IMG/VR virus record: IMGVR_UViG_3300037245_001182
Span: 1-21,368 of that record
Source of the DNA: a virus
Reading direction: 5' to 3' (one strand)
Length of the DNA: 21,368 bases
This document shows, piece by piece, positions 3,501 through 21,368 of this stretch (its first letter is position 1; each line of letters starts with the position of its first letter). The translations under genes were made by a program, and so were the position numbers. The notes below the pieces were generated by a model. That model was not told the DNA's origin. It worked only from the letters and a program-made list of their open reading frames with translations, and ran no database searches.

Positions 3501-4997
3501 CACGTTGATCCAGTGCTTGATGATTACAGCCAGCGCCAGACCAAGGGCCACGATCCCTGCAATGACTAGGAGCAGGGTTCCACCAGACAGTGCGGTCATG
3601 GCCGTGACGACACCCATCACACCAGCCTTGATCGAAGTCCACAGGGCAGCGAAGCCAATACCCTTGATGGTCACCGCCAGCTTTGCCAATACTCCACCGA
3701 ACTTCGTGAACCCAGCACCCACCTTGGCAAGCGTCGGGACCAGGAGTTTGAACCCGGACATCTGCGTGAGGAAGAAACCGGTGACCATAAGGACTGGACC
3801 AAGCGCCGTGACGAAGGCCGCGAAGACTAAGGACAGCCTCTGAATCGGGGCGGGCAACTCCTTGAACTTGGTGGCCAGCTCGGAGAACTTGTTTGCGAGC
3901 TTGATGACAAACTTGGTAAGTGCTTCTGCGTGCGGTGCCAGGATTTGACCAAGCGAGATGCCAGCATCCTGCAGGGCGGACTGCATTTTGGTGACGCTGC
4001 CCTGAAGGCCCTTCATCATAACCTCGGCCATCGTCTTCACAGCGCCGGCTGCGTCGTCGGCTTTCTTCTCGAGGTCGCGCAGCGCATCTGCGCCCTGATT
4101 GACGATGGAGATCATTGCGGGTCCACCACGGACACCAATCAGCGTCATCATATCGGAACTGTTCTCGGCGGCGGTACCAACCCGTTCGAAGCCATCGGTA
4201 AACTGGTCGATGATGTCTGCCATCGGCATCATGTTACCCGCCGCGTCCACGACACTGATCCCATACTTCTTCATGACCTTGGCACCCTCTTTGGTGGGAC
4301 CAAGAAGGCTGGTGATGATCTTCCGGAGGGAGGTGCCGGCCATGGAACCTTGAATACCGGCGTTACCAAGCAAACCGATCGCGGCGGCCATCTCGTTGAA
4401 GCGGAGGCCAACACCAGCGGCAACCGGACCGACCATCTTGAAGGCCTCGCCAAGCTGGAGCAGGTCTGTATTGGACGAGCTCATTACTGTGGCGAGGGTG
4501 TCCGTGGCGGCAGCGAGCTGTTCGGTCTCTAGGCCGAACCCTTTGAGGATGTTGGTGACGACGTCCGCTGAGGTTGCAAGGTCGATGTTTGCGGCTGCTG
4601 CGAGGTTTAGGGTGTCCGCCATGGACCCCATGATGTCGTCCGTTTCCATACCAGCCATACCGAGGAAGCCCATCGCATCTGCGGCTTCCCCTGCTGTGAA
4701 CTTGGTGGTCTTGCCAAGTTCACGGGCCTTTGCTTCTAACGCTTCAAACTCCTCGCCTGTTGCTCCAGTCACAGCAGCAACTTTGTTCATCCCAGCTTCG
4801 AAGCTAGCGGCCAGTTTCAACCCAGCGGCCGCGACACCAACCATAGGGGCAGTGATGGCCAAGGTCATGGCCATACCAGCCTTTTGCATACTGGCCCCTA
4901 TACTGCCTAGTGACTTCTGTGCCTTTTGGAGGCCGCGTGACAATCCACTTACATCGGCCCCAATCCGGACGAACATGTCAGCAAGTTTCATCCCCAT
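582..4997 (-). CDS. Tail tape measure protein (1471 aa)
   Basis: This is the longest gene of the window and sets tail length; it also guides tail tube polymerisation and is expected to be ejected ahead of DNA. Residues about 1-350 resemble the TP901-type tape measure core (segments such as GATGEEFEALEAKARELG and KYGISVVDAAGNMMPMADI). Two to three hydrophobic segments follow around residues 390-500 (for example GGTLLLVIAGIVALGLALAVI). A glycine-rich tract lies near residues 980-1000, and coiled-coil-like stretches with heptad charge patterns fill the C-terminal third. No peptidase or lysozyme motif is seen. An ATG at 5042 is in frame but has no ribosome site. The ATG at 4997 has AAGGAG seven bases upstream and overlaps the chaperone T stop by 20 bases, so I chose it. 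At the usual ~1.5 angstrom per residue the tail would be roughly 200 nm (inference). Confidence 0.93.
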   Translation of the reverse strand: MGMKLADMFVRIGADVSGLSRGLQKAQKSLGSIGASMQKAGMAMTLAITAPMVGVAAAGLKLAASFEAGMNKVAAVTGATGEEFEALEAKARELGKTTKFTAGEAADAMGFLGMAGMETDDIMGSMADTLNLAAAANIDLATSADVVTNILKGFGLETEQLAAATDTLATVMSSSNTDLLQLGEAFKMVGPVAAGVGLRFNEMAAAIGLLGNAGIQGSMAGTSLRKIITSLLGPTKEGAKVMKKYGISVVDAAGNMMPMADIIDQFTDGFERVGTAAENSSDMMTLIGVRGGPAMISIVNQGADALRDLEKKADDAAGAVKTMAEVMMKGLQGSVTKMQSALQDAGISLGQILAPHAEALTKFVIKLANKFSELATKFKELPAPIQRLSLVFAAFVTALGPVLMVTGFFLTQMSGFKLLVPTLAKVGAGFTKFGGVLAKLAVTIKGIGFAALWTSIKAGVMGVVTAMTALSGGTLLLVIAGIVALGLALAVIIKHWINVKDVMMAFGRDMAKFFASLWKSYKDWIAKVVGLFGKFGMWVAGWVDKIFGTALARKIKKVWDGISSYMKGVWKKITGFFEGGFGKIVGLFAKLAGKLGLEETERAFENWKIALDLAGEAAADFVGPISDVGPIAEDVVEQLDLLPPPLLDAGEAAEGFARALDDAGIAAANLLEDIPKTFDELVDSVKKAKSTLLPFWQSVADKAKEHRKAVEAQILVYDELGVVAGPAIESLLNELTRLDKMMAQIAQRSLDDEFVALNKSMRSGLIESTKVLSAELQAMGGILDTLADDKWAGLNKAIEVADSAMKQYGITSTGSIFDIIDGLELQRLAMEDSWAAGTHSAADYWRVVIKSLEKQIDLTSQLGLETEHLEAQLSAAGDALAETGVGFVKVKKKAGEAGFVMKQVSTIVTDLSRGLADAILEGENFGEIVANSFEAAGKAVLRFAIETVGKELMNSLLNAQGAVAGLSKAFDGLMSGITKLIGGGGGGGAGGGGGGGGAMGMLAGGPLGMLGSLGTMVSSIIGNFQNAKMEKTMNAIEENTRYIKIWTGEEEYSIKNNTAATREGIGYLNASTDDIKKSLWEISETLNSGIFVQDTELKKELDLTKRDVVEVTERTAEAEIAATGDVVASVDTSTQAIHETRQSVDVQTNHIDQGFDELKSVQERGTEILRELGSNVDSWGSVMDEVASGMVNVATAVQNQTRSLNQLMGGGAGTVVTVAPDVDAIQVKQLFYLRYLENLDVPLSNALAFLERAISSQATNLQDFQPIAPENVSEYESLQKELVRLQKKERKTYVDRARIQDIQARLIKLDTQNNNATSDLQQNQLSSNGRYATNLNTSSSALDSGSNRLVQAGMGASKAIDTSFATVAGALTTGAKDLSGIGLAKVGQITSGFAGALQTGMVSPFGKNVLGQQPPPAPGISNTGVVGISSAPAFWGKNGNPVYLSVEVNNADAKKVADTMIGTWRSHGVDI

Positions 4998-5843: not shown

Positions 5844-6284
5844 TTAAGCCAGCGTCGGAGGTCCGGACACCTTGATGGTGACCGAGGCCTGGAGCACATC
5901 GGCCGGGTCAGAGCTGGGCTCGAACGCCGTGATGATACCGGGGAACGACCACTCGGTTTCGCTTTCGTCCGGGAACACGATTTTATAGGTCAGCTCGGTC
6001 CGGTCGGTCATGGTCTTGACAAGCCCACCCGCGGTCGCTGCGGTGTGCGTCGCGTTGGTCGGGACGAAGTTAATGTCGAGGCTGACCTCACCACCGTCAA
6101 GCAGGCCGGAGATGAACTTCCGCCACGGCGTCGGGGTGTTGTGAACAGTGACATCGATTGCGTCAGCCGAAAGGCTCGGGCCGGAAACGTTGCGAAGTTC
6201 GGCGATGGTGGTAAAGACTTCGGGTGACTCACCATCACCGACCTTGAGGTAAGTCTGGAACGCGCTAATTGCTAGAGTACTCAT
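5844..6284 (-). CDS. Major tail (tube) protein (146 aa)
   Basis: The protein starts MSTLAISAFQTYLKVGDGES and contains FTTIAELRNVSGPSLSADAI and the segment TELTYKIVFPDESETEWSFP, a pattern typical of siphovirus tail tube proteins of the lambda V/phage_TTP type. Length is normal for a tube protein without an extra Ig-like domain. It should polymerise as hexameric rings around the tape measure to form the tail tube. The ATG at 6284 overlaps the glycosyltransferase stop (ATGA), with a GAGAGGAG ribosome site about six bases upstream, so translation may be coupled. A CGATAANTAA element about 60 bases upstream and a strong terminator just downstream make it a possible single-gene transcription unit, which suits its expected high copy number. 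Confidence 0.9.
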   Translation of the reverse strand: MSTLAISAFQTYLKVGDGESPEVFTTIAELRNVSGPSLSADAIDVTVHNTPTPWRKFISGLLDGGEVSLDINFVPTNATHTAATAGGLVKTMTDRTELTYKIVFPDESETEWSFPGIITAFEPSSDPADVLQASVTIKVSGPPTLA

Positions 6285-7921
6285 TTGTTGCTCCTCTCAG
6301 TCTGGTTGGGCGACCCTGTCACCGGTTGCTTATGCTTCCATCTGTTGTTAATTATCGGCACGGAGACACTTGCCCACTTCAGGCGCTGGAACTCCATGCG
6401 CTCGAGGAATGCTTGAGCTTGGTCGAATCCTTTACTCTTCAGGATGCGCACTGAGGAGCTTAGGTTCCGGTGGAGGTACATTGCCCCTTCCATGTGGTTG
6501 GTTCGCCAGCCAGCACACTCGAGCTGGTAGCGCATGTCATTGTCCTCAAGTCCCCAGCCAGGCCCGCCGAAGGGACCATCCGTTTCAAAGCGCACGCCAT
6601 CTATGAAGGGACTCATACGGAATAGACCATACTGTGTCCACGCCACATCTTGTTCACTGTCCTTGAAGAGGAGGAACTCCTCGAGGCAGACTAGTGCTCT
6701 GGTCGTGTAGGCACGTTCCTTCAGGTGACCACCAGACCACATCCCAATACAACCAACCTCCGGGTATTGTTCGAGGTGGTCAACCATGGCACCGACGGAG
6801 TGTGGGATTACTTCGAGGTCACAGTCCGTGAATAGGATGTGGTCCATACCATACCGAATTGCCAGGTCGATGAGCTGGTTTCTGCCGATGGCGTTGCCGA
6901 AGTTCTCCTTGTTAAAGATGATCCGAACTGGGCAGGTCTCCCGCCACCTGTCAAGGTGCTGCTTGAGGAGTCCTGGTGTACCATCTGTGGAACCGTTGTC
7001 CACTACATACACTTCCGGAGTAACGCGCCGGAAGTGCTGAAGCCTGCCTGCCTCTTTGACCAAGGCCTCGATACCGTCGATGGTGATCTGACCCATCTCC
7101 CATGACAGACTTACCAAGGCAACCCGCCGCCTACCCTTACAGTAGAGTTCAGCAACGTCGTTGTTAGGCAGTGGCTCCCAGTTGTCCGTGCGGGTCTTGT
7201 GAATGGTGTTGTGGGAGTGGATACCAATCACTGTCAGCTCAGGTGTACAGACTGCCCGCCTATGCATACCAATACGCCTGATGAACATCTGGTCCTCAGC
7301 ACGTGAGGTGTCTGGGAACTGGTAGTTTCTCCAAGCGTCTCGGTGGAAAACCATGGTGCCACCGATCATGACTGTGCGGTCGCCATGTTTGAAATGGTAG
7401 CCCAGCTCCTCTTCGAGATCGTAGTACCACGGTTCTGAGCAAGCGACCATGTGGGTCTTGTCCGAAAAAAGTGCTAGTTTTGCGGACAGAGCGTTTGGTG
7501 CTTGGCGGTCGTCGTCGTCCCAGATGGCGAAGTGGGTTGCCTTGGAATTCCGCACCGCCATGTTGCGCCGTTCACCGATGGTCGTGTCCGGGGTGCATCT
7601 GACTACCGAAATCATGTTGGTGCTTTTTGGTAAGTACTCATGAATCGCAGCAGCATCCTCCGTGACGATGATGAGCTCTTTGTTCGGCCAGTTCTGGGCC
7701 ATGAAGTCTGCCATGGCTTCCGGCCAGAACTCCTTGCGCTTCTCGGATGTCGCCATAAGGCAGGCCACTAACGGGTGCTTCGCCTTCCAGTCAGCCGGGT
7801 TGTGCCGATGCTTTTGATGGACCTTCATGGTCTGAAAGTCCGATGTGTCGTAGGGGCAGGCAGCACAGAAGTACCATGAGATGCTACGGACGACTTTGGT
7901 GGTGAACTGTGGTGGTATCAT
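6281..7921 (-). CDS. C2H2 zinc finger fused to two tandem GT2-like glycosyltransferase domains (546 aa)
   Basis: Residues 19-40 form a C2H2 finger (C19, C22, H35, H40). Residues about 50-250 form a first GT-A fold glycosyltransferase: LVACLMATSEKRKEF at the nucleotide-binding strand, four aspartates 135-138 in the DxD position, and ED at 209-210. Residues about 265-490 form a second GT-A unit: VYVVDNGSTDGTPGLL at 304-319, DxD at 366-368 (FTDCDLE), and GLEDNDMRYQL near 457-467. Family knowledge: GT2-like enzymes transfer sugar from a nucleotide-sugar donor. Here the gene sits inside the tail module, overlapping its neighbours at both ends by four bases, so its target may be a virion protein; host surface or DNA bases are alternatives. 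The second domain resembles polypeptide-type glycosyltransferases in its late GWGLEDND motif, but the acceptor cannot be told from sequence. Confidence 0.85.
   Translation of the reverse strand: MIPPQFTTKVVRSISWYFCAACPYDTSDFQTMKVHQKHRHNPADWKAKHPLVACLMATSEKRKEFWPEAMADFMAQNWPNKELIIVTEDAAAIHEYLPKSTNMISVVRCTPDTTIGERRNMAVRNSKATHFAIWDDDDRQAPNALSAKLALFSDKTHMVACSEPWYYDLEEELGYHFKHGDRTVMIGGTMVFHRDAWRNYQFPDTSRAEDQMFIRRIGMHRRAVCTPELTVIGIHSHNTIHKTRTDNWEPLPNNDVAELYCKGRRRVALVSLSWEMGQITIDGIEALVKEAGRLQHFRRVTPEVYVVDNGSTDGTPGLLKQHLDRWRETCPVRIIFNKENFGNAIGRNQLIDLAIRYGMDHILFTDCDLEVIPHSVGAMVDHLEQYPEVGCIGMWSGGHLKERAYTTRALVCLEEFLLFKDSEQDVAWTQYGLFRMSPFIDGVRFETDGPFGGPGWGLEDNDMRYQLECAGWRTNHMEGAMYLHRNLSSSVRILKSKGFDQAQAFLERMEFQRLKWASVSVPIINNRWKHKQPVTGSPNQTERSNK
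6345..6361 (-). promoter_or_regulatory. GTGCCGATAATTAACAA element (late promoter candidate, copy 2)
   Basis: Inside the 3' end of the glycosyltransferase gene the minus strand reads GTGCCGATAATTAACAA, about 60 bases before the major tail protein start. It contains GCCGATAA, the core of the FliA-type -10 element, and the CGATAANTAA pattern shared with three other sites. It would allow strong separate transcription of the tail tube gene. No matching TAAA-type -35 is seen at the expected distance. Confidence 0.45.
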
Positions 7922-8280
7922 CGAGCTGGTACCTCGAGGATTTGCTGTCCACCAGGACCATATAGCTCTGCCTCGATGGGACGTGTCTGGGCCTGCTGGT
8001 CTGCTAGCGGGAGAAGGTGGACGGCGTACACATGTTGCTTTATGAGTTGGGCGCTTTCAAGGGTATCGAAGGCGCAATGGCAGCAGTGCCACTGTGGACG
8101 CTTGTGCCAGCCCTCCGGGTTATATGTGAAGTCCCGGCCCTTTTGAATAGGTGCGCCAGCCGCCCTGGCAATGAACTCCTGGACCTCTACGCTATCGGCC
8201 CCGTTCGCAACCGGAATACGAGGATGTTGTGTCTGATCTGTTCCGGGTCCATTATCGTCTGTGCGTTCTCGAATTGGCAT
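7918..8280 (-). CDS. Small zinc-finger protein (120 aa), unknown role
   Basis: I do not recognise a full family. Residues 66-88 form a C2H2-type finger (C66 and C69, H83 and H88; sequence HCCHCAFDTLESAQLIKQH). It resembles the finger at the start of the next gene: both have C-x2-C, an aromatic-Asp-Thr a few residues later, then the His pair. The start ATG at 8280 lies inside the preceding gene, giving a 94-base overlap; GGAG nine bases upstream supports it and there is no later ATG, GTG or TTG before the finger. The gene ends with an ATGA overlap into the glycosyltransferase gene, so the two are probably translated together and may act together, for instance by recruiting the enzyme to a target (inference). 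Confidence 0.75.
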   Translation of the reverse strand: MPIRERTDDNGPGTDQTQHPRIPVANGADSVEVQEFIARAAGAPIQKGRDFTYNPEGWHKRPQWHCCHCAFDTLESAQLIKQHVYAVHLLPLADQQAQTRPIEAELYGPGGQQILEVPAR

Positions 8281-8600
8281 GAAATGATTCTCCAGTCTGT
8301 ACCGCTGATGGGCTGGTGTTCCAGGAGTTGAATGATCCTGTTACCAATCAGTTTTGCTTCTTTGAAGCCGCGGTAGTCGGAGTAGACGTGGATGGCCACT
8401 GTAACCTGCCGGCCGATGCGTGTGTGGAGGTTGTCAGGTGTTTCGTTCCACTCGCCCAATCGTACATATGGGCAACGCACATCTTCCTCTGGAGGAACTT
8501 CCCCGTCGTAGACGCCATTCGTGAGCACACCGAGGTTCGCGTCCCCATCGAGGATGGTGAAAATACCCTCTTGCAAATCCCATAGTGAAGAACCACTCAT
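8187..8600 (-). CDS. Tail terminator / tail completion protein (137 aa, DUF3168-like)
   Basis: The protein starts MSGSSLWDLQEGIFTILDGD and contains GVYDGEVPPEEDVRCPYVRLGE and VTVAIHVYSDYRGFKEAK, which match the DUF3168 family (length about 120-140). Members of this family cap the tail tube and form the interface with the head-tail connector, as does lambda gpU. Position supports this: it follows the HK97 gp10-like gene with an ATGA overlap and precedes the tail tube cluster. AAGGAG nine bases before the ATG at 8600 supports the start. Its last 94 bases overlap the zinc-finger gene in another frame, an unusually long overlap for this operon. Confidence 0.85.
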   Translation of the reverse strand: MSGSSLWDLQEGIFTILDGDANLGVLTNGVYDGEVPPEEDVRCPYVRLGEWNETPDNLHTRIGRQVTVAIHVYSDYRGFKEAKLIGNRIIQLLEHQPISGTDWRIISCQFENAQTIMDPEQIRHNILVFRLRTGPIA

Positions 8601-16601: not shown

Positions 16602-17219
16602 CTACTGCTTGTTAATAGTCGGGATCAAGTCCGGAAAGTACTCCCGGACCATGGCGAGGCCTTTGTTTCGGATGTCGGGGATGTCGAATTCGTCCATGCT
16701 GAGTTCAGTCCCAATCTCCTCATCCGTACGCCCTTCGAGGAATGTCCGAACAAGCACTGTGGCCTCGATGAGGGGCAGCTTCTCCTCAAGGATCTTGGAC
16801 ACCTTGACGAACAGCAAACGCTGGTCCAGTTGCTCATCCAAGTCAGTTGTGCTTTCCTGGAGATCGAAGTCATCCGGGTGTTCGAGTTGGAACCGTATGT
16901 TGTATTTGCGCTCACGGGAAATCATGTCGAGGATGGCACCTCGAATCCGGGTGAACGCAAAGGTGCTGAACTTGGCACCACGGCTCCCGTCGAACAGTGG
17001 GATTGCTTTCGACAGGCCATACAACGCTTCTGCCACAATGGCTTCATGGTCTATTCGGACATCCTGTGGAATGGGAATCCTCTTGACGATGCTGAGGACC
17101 AAGGGCATAATGTTCTCACCATCGTGGATCACCTCTTGCACCTGGCAGCGCCCTGCCGGGACATGGCTCTCTCCATCCTTCTTCACTTCTGTAGGTCTCT
17201 CTGCTCGTTTGAATTTCAT
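16602..17219 (-). CDS. Sigma-70 family RNA polymerase sigma factor, FliA/SigB-like layout (205 aa)
   Basis: Residues about 36-103 match sigma region 2: HEAIVAEALYGLSKAIPLFD, then GSRGAKFSTFAFTRIRGAIL and DMISRER, the hallmark of -10 recognition and core RNA polymerase binding. Residues about 140-195 match region 4, with a helix-turn-helix (GRTDEEIGTELSMDEFDIPD) for -35 recognition. Region 1.1 is absent and region 3 appears short, as in alternative sigma factors. The start ATG overlaps the terminase stop by one base (TAATG). The place is where a terminase or portal partner would be expected, not a regulator. It could redirect host polymerase to late genes; candidate target elements with a GCCGATAA core are found upstream of several virion genes. 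A remote alternative is a diverged packaging accessory protein. Confidence 0.85.
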   Translation of the reverse strand: MKFKRAERPTEVKKDGESHVPAGRCQVQEVIHDGENIMPLVLSIVKRIPIPQDVRIDHEAIVAEALYGLSKAIPLFDGSRGAKFSTFAFTRIRGAILDMISRERKYNIRFQLEHPDDFDLQESTTDLDEQLDQRLLFVKVSKILEEKLPLIEATVLVRTFLEGRTDEEIGTELSMDEFDIPDIRNKGLAMVREYFPDLIPTINKQ

Positions 17220-20002: not shown

Positions 20003-20812
20003 CTAAGCCTTGCCCCGCACAAACTCTTCGCCCCATAGGGCGCTGCTGGTGACACTGCTAGCGGCGGCGGGGTGGGTAGGTATGCTGAACCGGCTGATGT
20101 GGTCACCCCAGCCCTCTACGTGCTTTGCAGCGGTCTGCTCGAACCGGTCGATGGAGTCCTGTTCCATCCCAGTGTATGTGATGTACAGGGGGATCCCCCA
20201 CCCGACCAACATATTGAGGTTGCTCAGCATTAGTGCCGGGTCGAAGGTCCGTTCGCGTGTCACCCTGTAGAACTCGTCCGGAGACCAGCCTTTAATGTCC
20301 ACGGTGTACATGCAGTTCCGGCGAAGGTGCTGGAGCTGCCGGAGGACACCGTCCTGGTACCGGGGGCCAGCCAGGCAGAGATTAGTGTAGAAGGCGGTGG
20401 GTCCTCGTGTGTTGTCTGCCAAGCTCTTTAACAGGTCCGGCCACATCTCCATGTAGAGCCCAGGGGTGCCACCAGTGGGGTGAAACGCGTCGAGTGTCTC
20501 CATGTGGTCCTGGTGTGCAAAGTGGTAGTCCTGGAGGTTGGTGAACTCAGTCACAAGCGAAGCTGTGCTGTAGCACTCGGGTTTCCCGTCGTGCTCGCCG
20601 CTATACAGGTGTGCCAGGAACTGAAGCGAAGATGGTTTCCAGCCCCATCGGTCAAGCACGAACTCCCCCACGCGGGCGGCAGCTGGGGATCGGCACACAT
20701 CCCACGTTCGGAACATAGGGCGGCCGCGGGACACAATGATGTCGTCCTCCTGTATGTTCAGTACTTGGGCAGTGAGCGGTACGACCGGCCACTGCAAAGT
20801 CGTTGTTTTCAT
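20003..20812 (-). CDS. Radical-SAM-like protein without the CxxxCxxC motif (269 aa), function unknown
   Basis: The middle and C-terminal parts resemble a radical SAM barrel. FHPTGGTPGLYMEMWPDLLK (about 110-129) lies where GGEP is expected. AFYTNLCLAG (140-149) lies where the TNG strand is expected. VDIKGWSPDEFYRVTRERTF (171-190) and NLNMLVGWGIPLYITYTG follow the usual 'DIK...l...Gi...' pattern. However, no CxxxCxxC iron-sulfur motif is present; instead HFAHQDH (97-103) gives an HxxHxxH arrangement in the N-terminal part. If the fold is right, the protein is either inactive for SAM cleavage or uses another metal site. The ATG at 20812 overlaps the preceding stop (ATGA) and has GAGGG seven bases upstream; the longer frame to 20848 lacks this. 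It is co-transcribed with thyX, hinting at nucleotide metabolism. The fold call is tentative. Confidence 0.45.
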   Translation of the reverse strand: MKTTTLQWPVVPLTAQVLNIQEDDIIVSRGRPMFRTWDVCRSPAAARVGEFVLDRWGWKPSSLQFLAHLYSGEHDGKPECYSTASLVTEFTNLQDYHFAHQDHMETLDAFHPTGGTPGLYMEMWPDLLKSLADNTRGPTAFYTNLCLAGPRYQDGVLRQLQHLRRNCMYTVDIKGWSPDEFYRVTRERTFDPALMLSNLNMLVGWGIPLYITYTGMEQDSIDRFEQTAAKHVEGWGDHISRFSIPTHPAAASSVTSSALWGEEFVRGKA

Positions 20813-21051
20813 ATCAGTACCCTCAAGAGCTCCGGCAAGGCAGCCCACTCTCTTTCCATTTCCATCCGTTCCTCGTAGGCCTGCCGAAGTTGCCGGCGTG
20901 GCCTACCTTCCTTATCGGCACTTGCCTTGGATGGACCTGGCAGGCCATGGTTGGCAAAGTCCGGGGAGGCCACGAGGTAGCTGTTCTGAAAGAGCTTGAT
21001 AGCTACCCGTGGTGGAATGAACTGAATGGTGGTGCTGCTGTGGTCTGACAC
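20809..21051 (-). CDS. Small protein of unknown function (80 aa)
   Basis: I recognise no family. The protein starts MSDHSSTTIQFIPPRVAIKL, with a middle segment NSYLVASPDFANHGLPGPSK and a basic then acidic helical end (RPRRQLRQAYEERMEMEREW). The start is GTG at 21051: AGGAGG lies seven bases upstream, overlapping the region just after the thyX stop, and no ATG is available nearby. It sits between thyX and the radical-SAM-like gene in an operon with a 12-base gap upstream and a four-base overlap downstream. A GTGCCGATAA copy lies within this gene. Confidence 0.7.
   Translation of the reverse strand: MSDHSSTTIQFIPPRVAIKLFQNSYLVASPDFANHGLPGPSKASADKEGRPRRQLRQAYEERMEMEREWAALPELLRVLI
20912..20921 (-). 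promoter_or_regulatory. GTGCCGATAA copy inside the 80-aa gene
   Basis: This is a third exact copy of the ten-base core found before the protease and major tail genes, about 100 bases upstream of the radical-SAM-like gene and on the same strand. It lacks the following TAA of the other copies (it reads GGAAGG), so it may be chance or a variant site. Confidence 0.25.
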
Positions 21052-21063
21052 TGTCAGGCCTCC

Positions 21064-21368
21064 TTATTCTTGGTGTACAATCCTGGCCGGTACTTCGTCG
21101 TACATGAAGTTCTCAACCAGTTCTGCCTCCTTAAACGGTAACACAGGCGCAGCGATATTGTCAAAGAACATTGGCAACCGTTCCTGGAAGTAGCGGAGCA
21201 GTGGGACAGCGAGCTGCCGCATTTGCGGGTGGGCGTCCGCGGCAGTACGCTTGACCAGGAAGTTGTGCCAGGACCCGAGGTTGAGTGTGGCGACGTATTC
21301 GGTCTTCAAACCGGTCGGCAGGAAGTACCTTGCCATCTGGGGTGACCAATTCATGTCCGTCCGCCAGA
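21064..21368 (-). CDS. thyX: Flavin-dependent thymidylate synthase ThyX, C-terminal part (cut by right edge)
   Basis: The frame is open to the window edge, so the N-terminal part, including the RHRxxSxNE-type motif, is missing. The visible part has the ThyX C-terminal pattern: QMARYFLPTGLKTEYVATLN (as in 'AR..LP....T'), then LGSWHNFLVKRTAADAHPQM (as in 'Rsl.hFl.lR....AQ.EIR') and RQLAVPLLRYFQ. The enzyme makes dTMP from dUMP using methylene-tetrahydrofolate and FAD/NADPH; phages carry it to supply thymidine for replication. The ATG at 21354 is an internal methionine, not the start, because codons upstream (Trp-Arg-Thr-Asp) remain open and fit the family. AGGAGG of the next gene begins at its stop codon. 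Confidence 0.85.
   Translation of the reverse strand, partial: WRTDMNWSPQMARYFLPTGLKTEYVATLNLGSWHNFLVKRTAADAHPQMRQLAVPLLRYFQERLPMFFDNIAAPVLPFKEAELVENFMYDEVPARIVHQE

Follow-up and report, generated by a model that had tools for sequence, protein, structure and literature searches.

A tandem glycosyltransferase (GT) that begins with a C2H2-type finger is encoded between the tail terminator and the major tail (tube) protein (MTP) of a phage, directly beside a small gene whose product carries a related finger. Sequence comparison and structure prediction suggest that the protein is a soluble cytoplasmic enzyme that glycosylates a virion protein, likely one of the tail, and that its finger serves as a docking tag of a kind also present in a tail-operon protein. 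We assign this reading a probability of roughly 0.55. The DNA analyzed (hereafter, the window) is an entire IMG/VR viral record of 21,368 nt, itself a fragment. Relatives, designated by L numbers, are loci from viral contigs, some of which are also fragments.

A tandem glycosyltransferase in a tail operon

The minus strand of the window has a gene order typical of a long-tailed phage: terminase, sigma-70-like, portal, Mu-F-like, protease, major capsid protein (MCP), and connectors, followed by the tail terminator, a 120-aa gene, a 546-aa gene, the MTP, chaperone genes, and the tape measure. The names portal, protease, and tape measure rest on sequence and gene order. An earlier note, made from the letters of this DNA, had described overlapping 546- and 120-residue genes between tail terminator and major tail genes, the larger encoding two GT-A domains with DxD-type motifs. 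Both reading frames, the identity of their neighbors by Pfam and PHROG, and both domains were recovered, and the placement is conserved in relatives.

8187..8600, minus strand: tail terminator (phrog_176, E 1.5e-21; Pfam Tail_completion_gp17, E 3e-17)
7918..8280, minus strand: free finger protein, 120 aa (open reading frame; family found after the terminator in relatives)
8017..8085, minus strand: C2H2-type finger of the small protein (C66, C69, H83, H88)
6281..7921, minus strand: finger-GT-GT protein, 546 aa (open reading frame; Pfam GT2 in two stretches)
7802..7867, minus strand: C2H2-type finger of the GT (C19, C22, H35, H40; ligands invariant in relatives)
7136..7783, minus strand: first GT-A domain, residues about 47-262 (model pLDDT mostly 70-95)
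7508..7522, minus strand: WDDDD metal/nucleotide-sugar motif of GT domain 1 (134-138; W134-D137 invariant in 17 relatives)
7292..7297, minus strand: ED 209-210, presumed catalytic-base motif of GT domain 1 (ED, EE, or DE in 17/17 alignment rows)
6383..7135, minus strand: second GT-A domain, residues about 263-513 (Pfam GT2 stretch 303-408)
6818..6826, minus strand: DCD (DxD) 366-368 of GT domain 2 (D366 and D368 invariant; DGD in L113 and L033)
6542..6547, minus strand: ED 459-460 of GT domain 2 (GLED kept in L003 and L113; GFED in L120/L121)
5844..6284, minus strand: MTP (Pfam Phage_TTP_12, E 2.3e-13; phrog_158, E 3e-20)

The terminator-to-MTP genes form a tightly packed late operon. The 546- and 120-aa genes share 4 nt (7918-7921), the MTP gene shares 4 nt with the end of the GT gene, and 94 nt are common to the 120-aa gene and the terminator gene. 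The ATG at 8280 is the sole ATG, GTG, or TTG codon 5' of the small protein's finger in the window, L004, and L003. A later start at the terminator stop was considered, as dN/dS exceeds 1 in the overlap, and was rejected because the codon there is GTA and other standard starts are absent; the high ratio is expected where the terminator frame overlaps. An open frame in this overlap arises by chance in 48% and is therefore by itself no evidence.

Other genes of the window merit mention. The sigma-70-like gene (16602-17219, minus strand; Pfam Sigma70_r2, E 5e-11; phrog_351, E 3e-13) lies between terminase and portal and touches the terminase stop, placing a sigma factor within the packaging module, and it is retained in the L003 genome (L019 5685-6302). 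Upstream of the terminase is the 3' part of a ThyX-type thymidylate synthase gene (21064-21354, minus strand; Pfam Thy1, E 1e-12). The product of 20003-20848 (minus strand) is homologous to an L003 protein (L019 583-1554) with the radical-SAM-like cysteine motif GCHLDCAYC; the window protein lacks this motif (YSGEHDGKPECYS), and its frame is nonetheless open.

Profile matches and predicted fold identify the 546-aa protein as a tandem GT of family GT2 with two GT-A domains. Pfam Glycos_transf_2 matches two stretches of it (E 4e-22, 79.3 bits versus a cut-off of 23.3), and DxD-type and ED motifs are present in both domains and retained in relatives; domain 1 also carries IGxxRN. A structure prediction from four close sequences gave a pLDDT of 38, and a model built from a 17-row alignment (mean pLDDT 69) was used instead. 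Residues 48-234 of this model align to 6p61 (Z 19.5, 181 residues, 2.9 Å) and residues 259-513 to ArnC 9bhc (Z 18.1, 190 residues, 3.1 Å). Close relatives at the same position are 74-90% identical, while the finger ligands and GT catalytic residues are retained down to about 29-32% identity. The dN/dS of the GT gene, about 0.2 versus L004 and about 0.09 versus L003, shows purifying selection. Annotated phages yielded only one match to the GT (22%), none to that of L113, and generic GTs only for that of L152; no relatives emerged when 84,980 bacterial and archaeal species were scanned twice.

An enzyme of this kind might instead alter a host surface polysaccharide, leading to receptor change or superinfection exclusion, with its site in the tail module being incidental. 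Such a role would fit the weak hits (E 4e-4) to PHROG families of moron GTs, including those of GtrB-like O-antigen conversion, as well as the matches of the GT domains to TarP/TarS and ArnC. In contrast to GtrB, however, the 546-aa protein has no membrane helix by hydropathy (Kyte-Doolittle maximum, 1.1). Moreover, the slot between terminator and MTP is kept across several lineages inside an overlapping late operon, and the GT has its finger in common with a tail-operon protein. We consider action on the host surface improbable.

Fingers of the small protein and the glycosyltransferase

The GT finger has the spacing C-x2-C-x12-H-x4-H, with ligands invariant in the window, L004, L003, L113, and L033; the same finger is present in L152 and L161. 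The small-protein finger has the spacing C-x2-C-x13-H-x4-H, and in the free fingers of L158/L162 the loop is longer (x16). The earlier note had listed disappearance of the finger cysteines from every relative as counting against its proposal. This is not what we found: all four ligands are invariant across ten aligned fingers. A loose C2H2 pattern arises in 0.6% (GT) and 0.1% (small protein) of shuffled copies. Matches to Pfam C2H2 models all fell under the gathering cut-off (E 0.012-0.07); hence, we call these fingers C2H2-type rather than members of Pfam C2H2. Their signature, aromatic-x-C-x2-C-x-hydrophobic-D, was confined to these proteins among the ORFs of the first loci set, and its D is not kept in some later free fingers (L150, L158, L162, and L165). 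Many of the fingers are preceded by W-[KH]-G. In the structure model, the elements that would make up a beta-beta-alpha fold in the GT finger (E7-11, E14-18, and H29-39) are placed at pLDDT < 50.

Reciprocal profile searches bear out the relationship that the earlier note had seen between the two fingers. When an HMM of the free fingers was run against 6,238 ORFs, the GT-fused fingers ranked next after the free ones (best E 9e-8), with the window's own GT finger scoring weakly (E 0.74, amid the first unrelated sequences). In the reverse search with a GT-finger HMM, the free fingers ranked straight behind the GT fingers. A common origin of free and GT-fused fingers is well supported by these comparisons, although it is not proven for each pair, because the strongest link is that within L152 and C2H2 fingers are generally alike. 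Searches of annotated phages with the free finger returned a chance-level match only, and none for L165. These results point to a conserved finger protein between terminator and MTP that lacks a reliable Pfam or PHROG family match.

Many C2H2 fingers recognize DNA or RNA, and the substrate of the GT could conceivably be a nucleic acid, such as modified phage DNA, to which the fingers bind. The L003 relative (67.8 kb) encodes QueD-like (PTPS) and QueE-like proteins (L022 2709-3317 and 3318-4082) and a DpdA-like protein (phrog_887; L021 6111-7133), indicative of probable 7-deazaguanine DNA modification. In addition, the second GT domains of L113 and L033 weakly match the TET-associated glycosyltransferase PF20691, which likewise has a GT-A fold. 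Taken together, these genes and matches make DNA glycosylation conceivable. The PF20691 matches are nevertheless under cut-off (E 0.01-0.03) and limited to L113 and L033, with no match at E ≤ 0.001 in five records. DpdA was not found in the record of the GT-bearing L113, a 26-kb fragment, and the GT and finger genes lie in the tail module, away from the modification genes. Most free finger proteins are acidic, with near-neutral fingers, and this charge pattern speaks for docking to protein rather than to nucleic acid. The earlier note had allowed either a protein partner or nucleic acid; the balance tilts toward the former, and we give action on nucleic acid little credence.

Natural variation between terminator and major tail protein

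Given that some relatives are fragments, absence was scored solely inside the sequenced slot. In nine lineages, a small finger protein is encoded after the terminator; in seven of these, the slot has no GT. The loci without one (L034/L024/L025, L036, L150, L154, L158/L159, L162/L163, and L165) share the order terminator, free finger, two to three small beta-type paralogues, and MTP, and no GT2 was detected in the records of this series that were searched whole (G003 and G004). L152 encodes a free finger, one beta paralogue, a finger joined to a single GT domain (281 aa), and the MTP. Finger-GT-GT proteins occur in L113, L033, and L161 (partial in L160); in L113 and L033, this gene stands immediately behind the terminator, and the free finger and beta paralogue are absent. 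Finally, the window, L003, and L004 encode a free finger and then finger-GT-GT, again with the beta paralogue absent. The finger-GT architecture, which the earlier note had proposed to seek in other phages, thus recurs in L152, L113, L033, L161, L003, and L004, and every GT in the slot has its own finger.

By these comparisons, this tail operon regularly includes the free finger protein, which is independent of the GT, and the GT itself is optional. Because L113 and L033 lack the free finger, the two proteins are not mutually required. Since the free finger mostly occurs without a GT, the finger probably had its original role in the tail module, from which the GT appears to have borrowed it. 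The earlier suggestion that both proteins dock to the same partner therefore survives in part: the fingers are related, but the small protein, mostly found without a GT, does not qualify as a dedicated partner of the enzyme.

The number of beta-type genes in the slot also varies: two to three without a GT, one with the single-GT form, and none with finger-GT-GT. Absence of these genes from the finger-GT-GT lineages is compatible with a role at the virion surface. A Thr/Ala-rich loop around residue 80 of the MTP is one to two residues longer in the GT-bearing window, L003, and L113, a weak difference. Trees of the MCP and the MTP place these viruses together but do not settle in which order the finger-only, finger-GT, and combined arrangements were gained or lost. 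Annotated Streptomyces and Thermobifida phages with MTPs 35-40% identical have no finger or GT genes at this position.

The tandem beta-type paralogues (two to three, about 115 aa each) are probably beta-rich, carry a GPF motif, precede the MTP, and weakly match the phrog_16194 tail protein. They were located as follows:

L154 3812-4955: beta-type paralogues
L036 15186-16302: beta-type paralogues
L150 4204-4934: beta-type paralogues
L162 4225-4950: beta-type paralogues
L165 3668-4384: beta-type paralogues
L024 5218-5940: beta-type paralogues

GTs of the same family also occur without a finger in other structural modules (L115, L116, and L123), and such enzymes in general therefore need no finger. 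The enzymes of L115 and L116 are encoded by WDDD-type GT genes (4061-4720 and 3989-4648, respectively) that are flanked, within the connector module, by head-closure and gp10-like genes. Single WDDD-type GT genes are present in L118, L122, L124, L125, and L128, in some cases followed by further GT-like genes; those of L118, L124, and L125 lie shortly behind the MCP. The tandem GT of L121, also finger-less, immediately follows the MCP. This protein and its relative in L120 begin with a different small domain that in other phages is located beside the MCP, a likeness that consists of a weak alignment of about 50 residues.

The fused finger might simply be a structural part of the enzyme, serving stability or dimerization, with its likeness to the neighboring protein reflecting duplication only and no docking. 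Each protein has one finger, the fused finger of the window group is the more diverged by the free-finger profile, and, its tail aside, the GT varies most in the finger loops (45% identity over residues 19-40 versus L003), all of which would suit such a part. Conversely, the finger is retained in each slot GT, with one GT domain or two; the fold does not require it, as homologous GTs without a finger exist; and the tandem GTs of L120/L121 have another small N-terminal domain, one located beside the MCP in other phages. We regard a purely structural finger as unlikely.

Proposed role and relation to known systems

In the reading we prefer, namely virion glycosylation guided by a docking finger, the 546-aa protein would be a soluble cytoplasmic GT of the virion-assembly module. 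Both GT2/GT-A domains would use host nucleotide sugars, so that a virion protein becomes glycosylated during assembly. The candidate acceptor is most likely the MTP encoded directly downstream, or else another tail component. Domain 1 may add a first sugar and domain 2 a second sugar or an extension. The N-terminal finger, homologous to that of the small tail-operon protein, would serve as a docking domain that brings the enzyme to the tail component bound by the small protein. That the finger binds zinc and docks, which protein accepts the sugar, which sugar is donated, and in what order the two domains act are all inferred. Because the tag is related to a small tail-operon protein found in many relatives, it probably guides the enzyme to a component of the tail. 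Slot GTs always have the finger and finger-less GTs exist elsewhere; a docking tag is thus the simplest account, with the counterpoint that the finger gene and the GT may merely share an operon slot.

A tentative and rather doubtful generalization is that phages recruit GTs to the growing virion through a fused copy of a small domain from the same operon, the finger for the tail and the L120/L121 N terminus for the head; the free finger would then be an unrecognized conserved tail-module protein. Nature provides a series consisting of the finger alone, the finger with finger-single-GT, finger-GT-GT alone, and the finger with finger-GT-GT. Together with an enzyme that carries a domain homologous to a conserved tail-operon protein, this series makes targeting testable by removing or swapping about 35 residues.

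Several known systems resemble parts of this arrangement. In spacing (C-x2-C-x12/13-H-x4-H), the fingers are like Pfam zf-C2H2, from which they differ by their sub-cut-off match, their own signature, and the presence of one finger per protein. As for the enzyme, the top whole-chain matches in both sequence-profile and fold searches are synthases with two GT-A domains per chain, K4 chondroitin polymerase (2z86) and heparosan synthase 2 (8vh7). With a whole-chain rmsd of about 18 Å (394 residues), the likeness is limited to single domains, and the relative domain placement in the 546-aa model is uncertain. Unlike these synthases, the window GT has a finger, and polymerizing activity cannot be inferred from the resemblance.

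Another parallel is provided by mycobacteriophages. Passages in PMC12363180 and PMC11256854 (relaying Freeman et al. 2023) describe virion glycosylation of Che8, Corndog, and Myrna by their own GTs, with capsid and tail-tube proteins as the reported targets; according to PMC12363180, Che8 gp110 is a GT required for Che8 capsid glycosylation. The window GT profile has no match to gp110, which is GT25-type. GT domain 1 does match the GT2 domain of Che8 gp108 (E 6e-7), whose gene is two genes away from that of gp110. Whereas the Che8 GTs cluster near the genome end, the window GT sits inside the tail operon. In a limited search of the open-access literature, we came across no paper describing a phage GT with a fused finger, Che8-type GTs included. 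Virion and tail-tube glycosylation by phages is already known, and the finger-GT arrangement, as read from its sequence, appears to be a variant of it.
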